Below are positions 16,091 to 41,398 of a stretch of DNA of 64,000 bases, piece after piece. Made by a program: the position numbers and the translations under genes. Numbering within the stretch: position 1 is the first letter of the stretch; every line of letters starts with the position of its first letter. The notes under the pieces were generated by a model. That model searched no databases, was not told the origin of the DNA, and saw nothing but the letters and a program-made list of their open reading frames with translations. Location of the stretch: positions 1-64,000 of the forward strand of contig JANQNT010000021.1 in NCBI GenBank assembly GCA_028279445.1. The letters are read 5' to 3'. Source of the stretch: Tepidamorphaceae bacterium. Its GTDB lineage: Bacteria; Pseudomonadota; Alphaproteobacteria; Rhizobiales; Tepidamorphaceae.

Positions 16091-16384
16091 ATGAACAAGA
16101 CCGTCCAAGCCGTCGCAGTCGCTGGTGCTGTCTCCGCAGCGCTTGCCATGACCGGTGTTGTCGATACCGCATCGGCCCAGGAGCGTGAGAAGTGCTATGG
16201 CGTTTCCCTGGCCGGCCAGAACGACTGCGCCGCCGGCGAAGGCACGTCCTGCGCGGGCACCTCGACCGTCGATTATCAGGGCAATGCCTGGAAGCTGGTT
16301 CCCAAGGGCACCTGCCTGACCATGGAACTGCCCGATGACCGCAAGGGTTCGCTGGAGCCGCTTGATCGCGACAACCCGGCCTGA
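16091..16384 (+). CDS. bufA: Bufferin-type RiPP precursor (DUF2282), BufA
   Basis: 97-residue precursor of a post-translationally modified copper-binding peptide. A Sec signal peptide (1-29, cleavage after TASA, before QERE) exports it to the periplasm. The mature part has exactly four cysteines at 35, 46, 54 and 75, in contexts EKCYG, QNDCA, TSCAG and KGTCL that match the bufferin-1/DUF2282 family. In described members some of these Cys become thiooxazole rings made by the MNIO enzyme. AGGAG ribosome binding site 8 nt upstream. It heads bufABCD; the next gene starts 43 nt later. Confidence 0.88.
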
Positions 16385-16426
16385 CCGGCGCGCAGCCGTT
16401 CCTGTGGTGACAGCGGGGATCACGCG

Positions 16427-17323
16427 ATGACCTGCTTTGCCGATACGCCAAGCACGATCCCGGCAGCGGCCGGGGTCGGGCTCAAGGGCCAGCATGTGGC
16501 CGACATTCTGGCCGCCGGCGAGGACGCAGATGCGCAGCCGGCGCGCTGGTTCGAGGTGCATGCGGAAAACTATATGGGCGCCGGTGGGCGCCCGCATGCC
16601 AACCTGACCGCGATTCGCGAACGCTTCCCGGTCTCCGTACACGGAGTGGGCCTGAGCATCGGCGCCGAACGTGGCCTCGATCCGGACCATGTGGCGCGCC
16701 TTGCCGAGGTCGTGAAGCGTTACGAACCGGGGCTGGTCTCCGAACACCTGGCCTGGTCGACGCACGACACCCATTACCTCAACGACCTGCTGCCCGTCCC
16801 CTACACGCAGGCGACGCTGGACCGCGTCGTGTCCCATATCGGCCACGTGCAGGACGCCTTGCAGCGGCCGATCCTGCTGGAAAACCCGTCGACCTATGTG
16901 CGCTTCGAGACCTCGACCATGAGCGAACTCGATTTTCTGGCGCAGATCGCCGAACGCTCAGGCTGCGGCCTGCTGCTGGACGTCAACAACGTCTTCGTGT
17001 CGGCGACCAATCACGGCTACAGCCCGGATGATTATCTCGACGCGTTTCCGCTCGATGCGGTGGGTGAAATCCACCTCGGCGGCCACGCCGAGGACGCCGA
17101 CGATCTGGGCGACCCGCTGCTGATCGACTCCCACGATCGCGAGGTGATCGATCCCGTCTGGACGCTCTATGAGCGCGTGGTGGCCAGGACCGGCCCCAGA
17201 CCGACCCTGATCGAGTGGGACAACGACGTGCCGGACTGGGCCACACTGGCCGACGAGGTTCGCCACGCCGCTACCGTCATCGCGCGAACCGCCGGGGAGG
17301 GAGGCGATGTCCGCGCCGCGTGA
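16427..17323 (+). CDS. bufB: MNIO-family RiPP-modifying enzyme (DUF692), BufB
   Basis: Multinuclear non-haem iron-dependent oxidase that oxidises cysteines of the BufA precursor. 298 residues, TIM-barrel family. Conserved metal/substrate motifs run in order: VHGVGLS (71-77), SEHLAW (105-110), LENPSTY (151-157), LLDVNNVF (183-190), GEIHLGGH (213-220), DSHDREV (234-240) and IEWDND (262-267). All expected His/Asp/Glu ligands appear present, so it should be active. The stop overlaps bufC by 17 nt. No signal peptide, so modification precedes export. Confidence 0.92.
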
Positions 17324-18083
17324 CGGCCTGGACGGCCGGCATGGCCAGGACGCCTTCGTCAGTGCCTTGCTGGAGCCCGAGGCGGCCGTCCCCGACGATA
17401 TCGCCCCCTTGCGCGACGGCACGCCGGCCAACAAGCGCTTCACGGTTTACCGCAACAATGTCGTCCTCAGCCTGACGGACAACCTGCGGGCGGCGTTCCC
17501 GACGGTCGCGGCACTGGTGGGCGATGCGTTCTTCAACGCCATGGCCGGCGTCTACGTGCGCGAACACCCGCCCACAACGCCGCTGATGATGGACTACGGC
17601 AGCGATTTCGCCATCTTCATCGAGGGCTTTCCGCCCTCCGCATCGGTGCCTTATCTGGCCGACATGGCGCGCCTTGAGGATGCCCGACGGCAGGCCTACC
17701 ACGCCGCCGACGCCGTACCGGCCCCACAGGCAGCGTTCCAGCGGCTGCAGGGCGCAGATGCCGAGGTGGCCCGGCTGGTGTTGCATCCGGCGGTGCGGCT
17801 GATCTCGTCGCGCTTTCCGGTCTTCTCCATCTGGCAGCGCCACCACGACGATGACGCGCGGGCGCTACCTGACGGCGGCGAAGACGTGCTCGTCGTGCGG
17901 CCGCAGCTCGACGTGGAGATGTATCTGCTGGGCGCCGGCGAGGCCCGCTTCATCGCGGCTCTCGGCCAAGGCAAGAGGCTCGGCGAAGCGGCCCGGGATG
18001 CCGGCCCGAACGATGGTTTCGATCTCGCCGCCGCAATCGCCCGATTGATCCGCGCGCAGGCAGTTTCGGCAATCGAGGTCTAG
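17307..18083 (+). CDS. bufC: BufC/HvfC family partner of the MNIO enzyme (DUF2063)
   Basis: 258 residues. The N-terminal half (about 12-110) is the DUF2063 fold formerly annotated as a putative DNA-binding domain, with [20 protein letters not shown] and the following [16 protein letters not shown] block. In MNIO clusters this protein acts with the DUF692 enzyme, probably binding the precursor. The C-terminal half is less conserved. It overlaps bufB by 17 nt and has a strong GGGGAGGGAGG ribosome binding region, so the two proteins are probably made together. Confidence 0.88.
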
Positions 18084-18173
18084 AAAACACCCGGTGGGCC
18101 GTGCGAGGCCCGCCAATCGCCTTGTCGCATCCACAAAAGCCACTTCATCGTCTCCATTGACAGGTCAAAGCGC

Positions 18174-18734
18174 ATGAACGCGATCATATCCCTCCACAAT
18201 TCGGTATTCGGCGCGCTTGAGAAGTCGGTCGCGCCCTGGCTGATGCCGAGCCTTGCGCGGCTGGTCTTCGCCGCCGTGCTGTTCCTCTATTACTGGAATG
18301 CTGCCACCACCAAGCTGGGCGAGGGCGCGCTCGGCTTCCTGTTTCCCTCCGATGGCGCCTATATCCAGATCTTCCCCAAGACCGTCGAGCAGTTGGGATA
18401 CGACACCTCGCAACTGGGTACGTTCCACTGGATTGTCGCGGTGGCGGGCACCTGGGCGGAGTTCCTGCTGCCGGTGCTGATCGTGCTGGGTCTGTTCACC
18501 CGGCTCGCCGCGCTCGGCATGATCGGCTTCGTGGTGGTGCAGAGCTGGGTCGATGTCGTCGGTCACGGGCTTGGCGACAAGGATATCGGCGCCTGGTTCG
18601 ACCGGATCCCGTCAGCGCTCATTCTCGACCAGCGCGCCTTCTGGGTGTTCGTGCTGCTCTACCTCGTGATGCGCGGCGCGGGTCCGTTGTCGATCGACGC
18701 TCTTCTCGGCAAGCGCAACACGGCGGCGCACTAG
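18174..18734 (+). CDS. bufD: DoxX family membrane protein, BufD
   Basis: 186 residues with four hydrophobic helices in the DoxX pattern (about 22-42, 85-110, 112-130 and 155-175). It follows bufC by 90 nt and is the fourth member of the described bufABCD layout, where a DoxX-like protein accompanies the RiPP genes; its biochemical role there is unclear. Its stop codon TAG is the first three bases of the dispersed repeat element at 18732. Confidence 0.85.
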   Translation: MNAIISLHNSVFGALEKSVAPWLMPSLARLVFAAVLFLYYWNAATTKLGEGALGFLFPSDGAYIQIFPKTVEQLGYDTSQLGTFHWIVAVAGTWAEFLLPVLIVLGLFTRLAALGMIGFVVVQSWVDVVGHGLGDKDIGAWFDRIPSALILDQRAFWVFVLLYLVMRGAGPLSIDALLGKRNTAAH

Positions 18735-18826
18735 ATCATCCTGCGATTTGATCGACCCAATCAAATCGCAGAGGGATGATCGCTTCTAACAGGTTAGAGC
18801 AACTTATCTGCGCCGATCCTGGCGCC
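18732..18826. repeat. Dispersed structured repeat, copy A (truncated)
   Basis: Starts TAGATCATCCTG and contains a 12-bp perfect stem (18741-18752 with 18760-18771, 7-nt loop) capped outside by ATCATC/GATGAT, followed by TTAGAGCAAC-TTATC-TGCGCC-GATCCT-GGCGC. It aligns over its whole length with copy B at 41292-41398. The stem bases differ between the copies but both stay paired. Copy A lacks the closing GTTGCTCTAA arm, so its second hairpin is incomplete. Its first three bases are the bufD stop codon. The hairpin may also end bufABCD transcription. Confidence 0.8.
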
Positions 18827-18905
18827 ATCGCTTAAGCAATCCTTCAGCAAACCGCGCCATTGATTGCCCGGGTGGTCCCTTGTGCGTGGAGGCGGATTGG
18901 CGGCG

Positions 18906-41253: not shown

Positions 41254-41291
41254 GGTGCTGCTCCAGGCATAACCGGCGCGAAAATGGGGCT

Positions 41292-41398
41292 TAGATCATC
41301 CTGTGTTTGGGTTGAAACAACCCAAACACAGAAAAGATAATCGATTCTAAGAGTTTAGAGCAACTTATCTGCGCCGATCCAGGCGCAGGTTGCTCTAA
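41292..41398. repeat. Dispersed structured repeat, copy B (complete)
   Basis: Full-length version of the element at 18732. Hairpin 1: CTGTGTTTGGGTT (41301-41313) pairs perfectly with 41319-41331 over a 5-nt loop, extended by ATCATC/GATAAT. Hairpin 2: TTAGAGCAAC (41355-41364) pairs with GTTGCTCTAA (41389-41398), enclosing TGCGCC-GATCCA-GGCGCA. It lies between convergent hflX and mazG, can terminate both, and its end overlaps the mazG stop codon (41395-41397). Confidence 0.85.

Follow-up and report, generated by a model that had tools for sequence, protein, structure and literature searches.

A dispersed two-hairpin repeat, probably of RIME / Bru-RS type, in a Tepidamorphaceae genome, with element ends that coincide with the stop codons of neighbouring genes

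Two copies of the element and their neighbouring genes

The window, which is the whole stretch of 64,000 nucleotides of Tepidamorphaceae DNA that was analysed, carries two copies (A and B) of an element of approximately 108 bp that consists of two hairpins, one at each end, each of them having a 7-bp outer stem, an A-rich bulge of 3–4 nt and an inner stem. The two copies reported in an earlier note on this DNA are both present, with their extents amended to 18732-18836 and 41291-41398, and copy A does begin at the bufD stop codon as claimed there, TAG at 18732-18734 being the left end of the element. The features are listed in window coordinates.

18174..18734, + strand: untruncated bufD-like (DoxX/HvfX-type) gene lying upstream of copy A (HvfX model match below cut-off)
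18732..18836, + strand: copy A, left end intact and right hairpin decayed (covariance-model place C17:18731-18836, E = 1.1e-13)
18732..18734, + strand: left-end TA of copy A and first element base G, forming the bufD stop codon TAG
18734..18740, + strand: copy A, hairpin 1, 5′ arm of the outer stem, GATCATC
18741..18771, + strand: copy A, hairpin 1, inner stem-loop with a perfect 12-bp stem
18772..18774, + strand: copy A, hairpin 1, 3-nt bulge AGG (from sequence and alignment)
18775..18781, + strand: copy A, hairpin 1, 3′ arm of the outer stem, GATGATC
18794..18836, + strand: decayed hairpin 2 of copy A, which retains its 5′ arm but not the outer 3′ arm; no hairpin detected
41291..41398, + strand: copy B, complete (covariance-model E = 5.0e-23)
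41294..41342, + strand: copy B, hairpin 1, 7-bp outer stem (one mismatch) and 14-bp inner stem
41332-41335: copy B, bulge of hairpin 1, AAAA
41358..41395, + strand: copy B, hairpin 2, outer stem GAGCAAC/GTTGCTC and inner stem CTGCGCC/GGCGCAG
41365-41368: copy B, bulge of hairpin 2, TTAT
41395..41397, − strand: mazG stop codon TAG, made by the right end of copy B (mazG named by profile match)

The left half of the full layout reads C-TA-[GATCATC-CTG...CAG-AAAA-GATGATC]-spacer and the right half [TTA-GAGCAAC-TTAT-CTGCGCC...GGCGCAG-GTTGCTC]-TA-G. Both halves are the same object read inward from its own end, with the bulge on the far arm between outer and inner stems; the outer stems of the two hairpins differ (GATCATC, GAGCAAC) while their geometry is identical. 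The left flank TAGATCATC is the 5′ arm of the 7-bp outer stem of hairpin 1, TTAGAGCAACTTATCTGCGCC is the 5′ arm of the second hairpin, and the element ends are TAGATCATCCTG and TAGAGCAACCTG. The stems had been described as different in sequence yet fully paired in both copies; this holds for the inner stems, of 12 bp in A and 14 bp in B and each perfect, but is slightly too strong for the outer stem of hairpin 1 in copy B, where GATCATC is matched with GATAATC at the cost of one mismatch. From the alignment, copies A and B appear to belong to different subfamilies, copy A being like L001, L004 and L038.

The gene upstream of copy A closes a Bufferin-type cluster at 16091-18734, in which a BufB maturase scores above the NCBIfam cut-off, matches to BufA2, HvfC and HvfX are sub-threshold and the name bufD is given by context. 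When genome contigs were scanned for bufD, the homologues found were of bufD alone and mostly from Rhodobacteraceae, the closest belonging to Boseongicola and other members of that family.

Copies across the genome

The 21-base core of the element occurs twice in the window, against an expectation of zero. With as many as three mismatches allowed, it is present at 44 places across the 3.41-Mb genome; the reversed control pattern occurs nowhere. A covariance model was built on an alignment (A1) of 38 of the 44 core places, leaving out L014, L018 (the other arm of L011), L020, L034, L043 and L044, and found 45 distinct places at E <= 1.4e-10; the same search returned 121 rows at E <= 1, those beyond the 45 places used being antisense, partial or weak. 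The genome-wide search that the earlier note had called for thus finds further copies, at 44 places by the core and 45 by the model. None of the 45 lies inside a gene called by our codon-usage script, and 5 of the 43 with both neighbours called sit between divergent genes.

A survey of hairpins covered the 45 copies of the host genome, 22 of genome G044, 13 of G078 and 23 others, omitting L130, L197 and L202. Among the 45, an outer stem of 7 bp is combined with a bulge of 3–4 nt in hairpin 1 of 36 copies, and with a bulge of 4 nt in hairpin 2 of 35. Two copies, L041 and L042 (G000:C2 100140 and C19 499832), have flanks in common and so lie within a larger repeated unit; in place of CTAG they end in CAAG and CTGT.

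Related elements in other genomes and on plasmids

Matches at E <= 0.001 were found in 22 of 101 genomes (the host and 100 relatives), and at E <= 1e-5 in 9 of 289 genomes drawn across the class, the host being included in both counts. The best outside genome of the class-wide set is G345, of another order, with 13 matches; its highest score is 105 bits, whereas the host's own order gives 85.7 bits at best. This difference suggests horizontal spread, which is probable, copies such as L252:1376-1482 of G345 being closer than any in the own order.

The form of the element in G044 matches 131 plasmid records, mostly of Sinorhizobium, and that in G029 matches 393, mostly of Rhizobium, whereas the window copy has a single partial match, on a Methylovirgula plasmid. 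In the collection used, the matched Sinorhizobium and Rhizobium records carry no RIME annotation. Some G044 loci (L148, L203-L209) form a subfamily starting with ATAG, in which flanks are common to several copies, indicating that these are embedded in a longer repeat. A comparison of L224 with L232 (S. meliloti pSymB and SM11) shows that many S. meliloti strains carry an additional stretch of approximately 400 bases, located roughly 750 bases downstream of the element.

Filled and empty insertion sites

Four pairs of filled and empty sites were recovered, all for related elements on plasmids and none for the window's own copies. In the first, S. meliloti 1021 pSymB is filled (TCTC-CTAG-ATCACG...CCGCT-CTAG-GGCC) and S. 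kummerowiae and Sinorhizobium sp. K101 are empty (TCTC-CTAG-GGCC). In the second, R. beringeri TP37 is filled and R. leguminosarum BIHB 1217 has an empty CTAG, while three more relatives are without the left half only. The third is filled in R. leguminosarum WSM1689 and R. ruizarguesonis NZLR24, and empty in WSM1455 (CTAG), 248 (CTAG) and RCAM1365 (CTAA); the fourth is filled in Rhizobium sp. N324, and empty in BT03 (TTAG) and the more diverged NZLR1 (CTAC). TA is present on both sides at the filled sites. Insertion at CTAG-like (YTAR) sites that leaves TA on both sides is thus shown for related plasmid elements. Since all four empty sites are CTAG-like, the same data would also accommodate a 4-bp duplication of CTAG, or insertion beside CTAG with no duplication.

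In the host genome 25 of the 45 copies have CTAG at both ends. The outer bases vary as Y..R, copy B reading T TA ... TA A, and in G078 the left end is TTAG in three cases and the right end TAA in several. For L242, which has CTAT at its right end, no relative with the same flanks was found and hence no empty site. In L228, L229 and L235, compared with L223, the left hairpin is gone, apparently through a deletion between two occurrences of CCTGTTC, one in the flank and the other in the hairpin.

Stop codons at element ends

That copy A supplies the bufD stop codon, its left end being the TAG, was the earlier note's observation, and it proves to be general: in 18 of the 45 copies, nine on each side, the stop of a neighbouring gene is exactly the end of the element, the end of copy B being that of mazG. 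This placement follows from the CTAG target. Among CTAG sites elsewhere in the examined stretches, leaving out other element copies, 12 of 47 in noncoding DNA are at stops, so that any preference for stop codons beyond the target is not significant (18/45 against 12/47, p = 0.18); when all cases are taken the count is 12 of 55 (p = 0.078). Moreover, an insertion upstream of a stop gives an in-frame TAG one third of the time, and therefore not all 18 are necessarily insertions into stop codons.

Two of the filled and empty pairs record such insertions. At the third, a glycerol-3-phosphate dehydrogenase ending in ...RPASG has the stop TAA in empty RCAM1365 and TAG in filled WSM1689, the stop being shifted in the other two empty relatives by an upstream frame difference. 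At the fourth, the gene concerned encodes an acyltransferase and lies on the opposite strand, beside the other element end; its product terminates in ...EKRRA, and its stop is TAA where the site is empty (BT03) and TAG where it is filled (N324). Insertion into a stop codon with regeneration of TAG is thus shown at two loci of related Rhizobium elements. Because TA is kept on both sides and typical element ends begin with G, either end can replace a stop codon, and insertion into a stop that leaves TAG at the same codon explains the bufD stop, and likewise that of mazG at copy B; we infer that both arose in this manner. The bufD product is not truncated, 20 homologues of 180-194 aa (read from 20 of 80 loci) ending in the same region. 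A search of the literature, outside the founding papers on RIME (1995) and Bru-RS (1994), returned nothing on the regeneration of stop codons by such repeats.

At L027 (G000:C3, ~2470-2524, equal to C3 41951-42005) the 3′ end of an EamA-like gene, named as a transporter by its look, runs into what is left of a right hairpin; the encoded protein finishes in RRSRRRLL, and the right end of the element serves as its TAG stop.

Paired changes in the stems

Of the cells in the alignment of 38 copies, 97.3% are paired. Neither outcome that the earlier note named as refuting it, a lack of further copies or unpaired stems in them, was observed. Two-sided changes occur in 12 of 37 pairs, eight of these among the 13 inner-stem pairs of hairpin 1. 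None of 500 shuffles reached any of the five measures, and slid versions of the structure were 32-40% paired, a comparison in which the unslid structure has an advantage because it was derived from the consensus. Copies A and B differ at 5 of 14 inner-stem pair positions, counted from the bulge end, of which four are two-sided and paired and the fifth (position 13) is C-A and unpaired in copy A.

The earlier note took these differences as the signature of selection on structure. The two-sided paired changes do exceed the controls, but selection is one reading of them among others. Arm-to-arm template switching, by which the changes would be mainly mutational, is a tentative but serious possibility: perfect palindromes have replaced the bulged form in hairpin 1 of L035, in hairpin 2 of L011 and in L152 of G086, the bulge being erased or mirrored, as would result from the template-switching mechanism described in PMC8794818. 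Most copies keep the bulge in spite of this pressure, which implies that it is needed in the copies that move, and template switching carries no account of dispersal; it complements transposition rather than replacing it. Paired stem changes, which are usually taken as proof of a functional RNA, can come from template switching in mobile hairpins.

An orthologous pair of copies also bears on selection. L253 (G362) was examined in G266 for an empty site, where the ortholog (L257) instead retains a decayed copy; 72 of 94 bases agree inside the element against 1068 of 1201 in the flanks (p = 0.0013 for inside against outside, at one locus), so that this copy has diverged faster than its surroundings. 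On visual inspection of the alignment, one two-sided inner-stem pair change is kept and the outer stem has decayed.

Possible roles in RNA

Single-strand folding is strong (z = -4.4 for copy A and -9.9 for copy B), which would allow effects on RNA. The earlier suggestion of a terminator or RNA processing site finds no support: no terminator-like site, in the sense of a GC-rich hairpin followed by a T run, is present at copy A or copy B, and Rfam gave no matches in the window at the gathering score. An intrinsic terminator was rejected on the first of these grounds. That the element is a functional RNA in place, with stems selected because hairpins at 3′ ends terminate, protect or process mRNAs, is improbable, even though covariation beyond the controls, the strength of folding and the scarcity of copies between divergent genes (5 of 43) would suit it, and repeat regions of S. 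meliloti, REP elements included, are transcribed (PMC2873474). Copy A is without its right hairpin, the orthologous copy changed faster than its flanks, and the CTAG target accounts for the position of copies close to gene ends.

Affinities and a proposed mechanism of spread

We assign the element, with a probability of roughly 0.8, to the non-autonomous mobile elements (MITEs) of RIME / Bru-RS type. The dispersed mobile repeat with a conserved stem that the earlier note envisaged is borne out by the 45 genomic places, the four filled and empty comparisons (of related elements) and covariation above shuffled and slid controls. The element is filed with the RIME and Bru-RS palindromes because the same layout recurs in the order and the class, and two of these forms have matches among repeats on plasmids of Sinorhizobium and Rhizobium. 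RIMEs are reportedly the Rhizobium-specific intergenic mosaic elements of Osteras et al. in 1995; they are near 108 bp in length and comprise two palindromes. The copies of the G044 form on S. meliloti pSymB, of which strain 1021 has 13, we take to be the RIMEs of that paper. Like them, our element is a dispersed, intergenic, palindromic repeat of 108 bp with two hairpins, at 45 places of which none is inside a called gene; the window subfamily differs in having other stems and in hitting one plasmid record, partially. The TA-duplicating MITEs Correia/NEMIS, RUP and ERIC are likewise of ~100-130 bp, duplicate TA, lie near gene ends and have no coding capacity, but they occur in other bacteria, and two separate terminal bulged hairpins mark the present element.

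Annotated RIMEs are among the intergenic repeats of S. meliloti (PMC2573895), Bru-RS1 and Bru-RS2 of Brucella are palindromic elements of 103 and 106 bp (PMC10800456), and Bru-RS is associated with IS711, an insertion sequence (IS) that duplicates TA in YTAR (PMC2266754); the likeness to Bru-RS1 and Bru-RS2, one of description, lies in size, palindromes and a TA/YTAR-linked IS. Two papers call the function of rhizobial palindromic repeats unknown or obscure (PMC2573895, PMC2873474). Empty sites, a TA/YTAR target and regeneration of stops offer a simple mechanical account of how such repeats are sited and spread with little harm. Set against the MITE assignment are the failure of the searches to reveal a transposase with matching ends, the CTAG-like nature of all four empty sites, none of which belongs to the window's own copies, and the compensated pair kept by L253 and L257, which selection would also explain.

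Under this assignment the element would insert at YTAR and leave TA on both sides. Since its ends read TA-G inward from either side, a TAA or TAG stop hit by such an insertion would be replaced, in frame, by TAG for the adjoining gene. The element would have been mobilised in trans, the likeliest mover being an IS5-family DDE transposase that duplicates TA and whose source in the host genome would now be missing or decayed. Hairpin geometry may be kept because moving copies need it, aided by template switching between arms, and copies would decay after landing. A wider claim, which we consider doubtful, is that these elements form an alphaproteobacterial mobile class whose ends are recognised through hairpin geometry (7-bp outer stem, 4-nt A-rich bulge) and not through the sequence of the stems, which would drift by template switching; TA-G ends together with a YTAR target would make insertion into TAA or TAG harmless from either side; were it true, such a class would have a built-in safe harbour in TAA and TAG stop codons.

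Candidate transposases

The genome was searched by profile, and no transposase with ends matching those of the element was found. At the search threshold it contains neither a Y1 transposase, although Y1_Tnp was matched in 5 of 14 control genomes, nor an IS630 transposase, so that origins from RAYT/REPIN and from an IS630 parent (an IS630-derived MITE) were both rejected. An element akin to REPINs, which a RAYT (IS200/IS605-type tyrosine transposase) would carry in single-stranded form to sites beside CTAG with no target duplication, would share the pair of inverted bulged hairpins and the terminal tetranucleotide of REP/REPIN, and the CTAG empty sites are by themselves compatible with it. It is nevertheless very unlikely: the Y1_Tnp that it would call for is absent here, the ends are CTAG-like and lack the GTAG tag of the REP definition (PMC3733652), and the outer bases vary as YTAR.

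Two DUF4096 (IS5-type) matches are present. One is a 417-bp relic (L237:1377-1795, G000:C19) with CTAG on both sides and inverted ends GGCTCAGGAC, which suggests that an IS5-type IS using TA/CTAG was once active here, with different ends; the other lies beside a DDE_Tnp_1 stretch with an internal stop. An IS5-type parent in this genome was rejected, as the ends of the relic differ from those of the element and the other match is next to the interrupted DDE_Tnp_1.

Among the plasmid records, an IS5-family IS starts exactly on the right-end TA of the element in three, both of its ends being seen in R. ruizarguesonis TP42 and Methylovirgula HY1 and the near end only in Rhizobium BT03. An IS that lands on the element is not thereby one that moves it; their common target makes the role of mover plausible. 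Such landings resemble IS711 with Bru-RS in Brucella and the targeting of REP sequences by ISs in S. meliloti, as described in PMC2266754 and PMC1525189, respectively.
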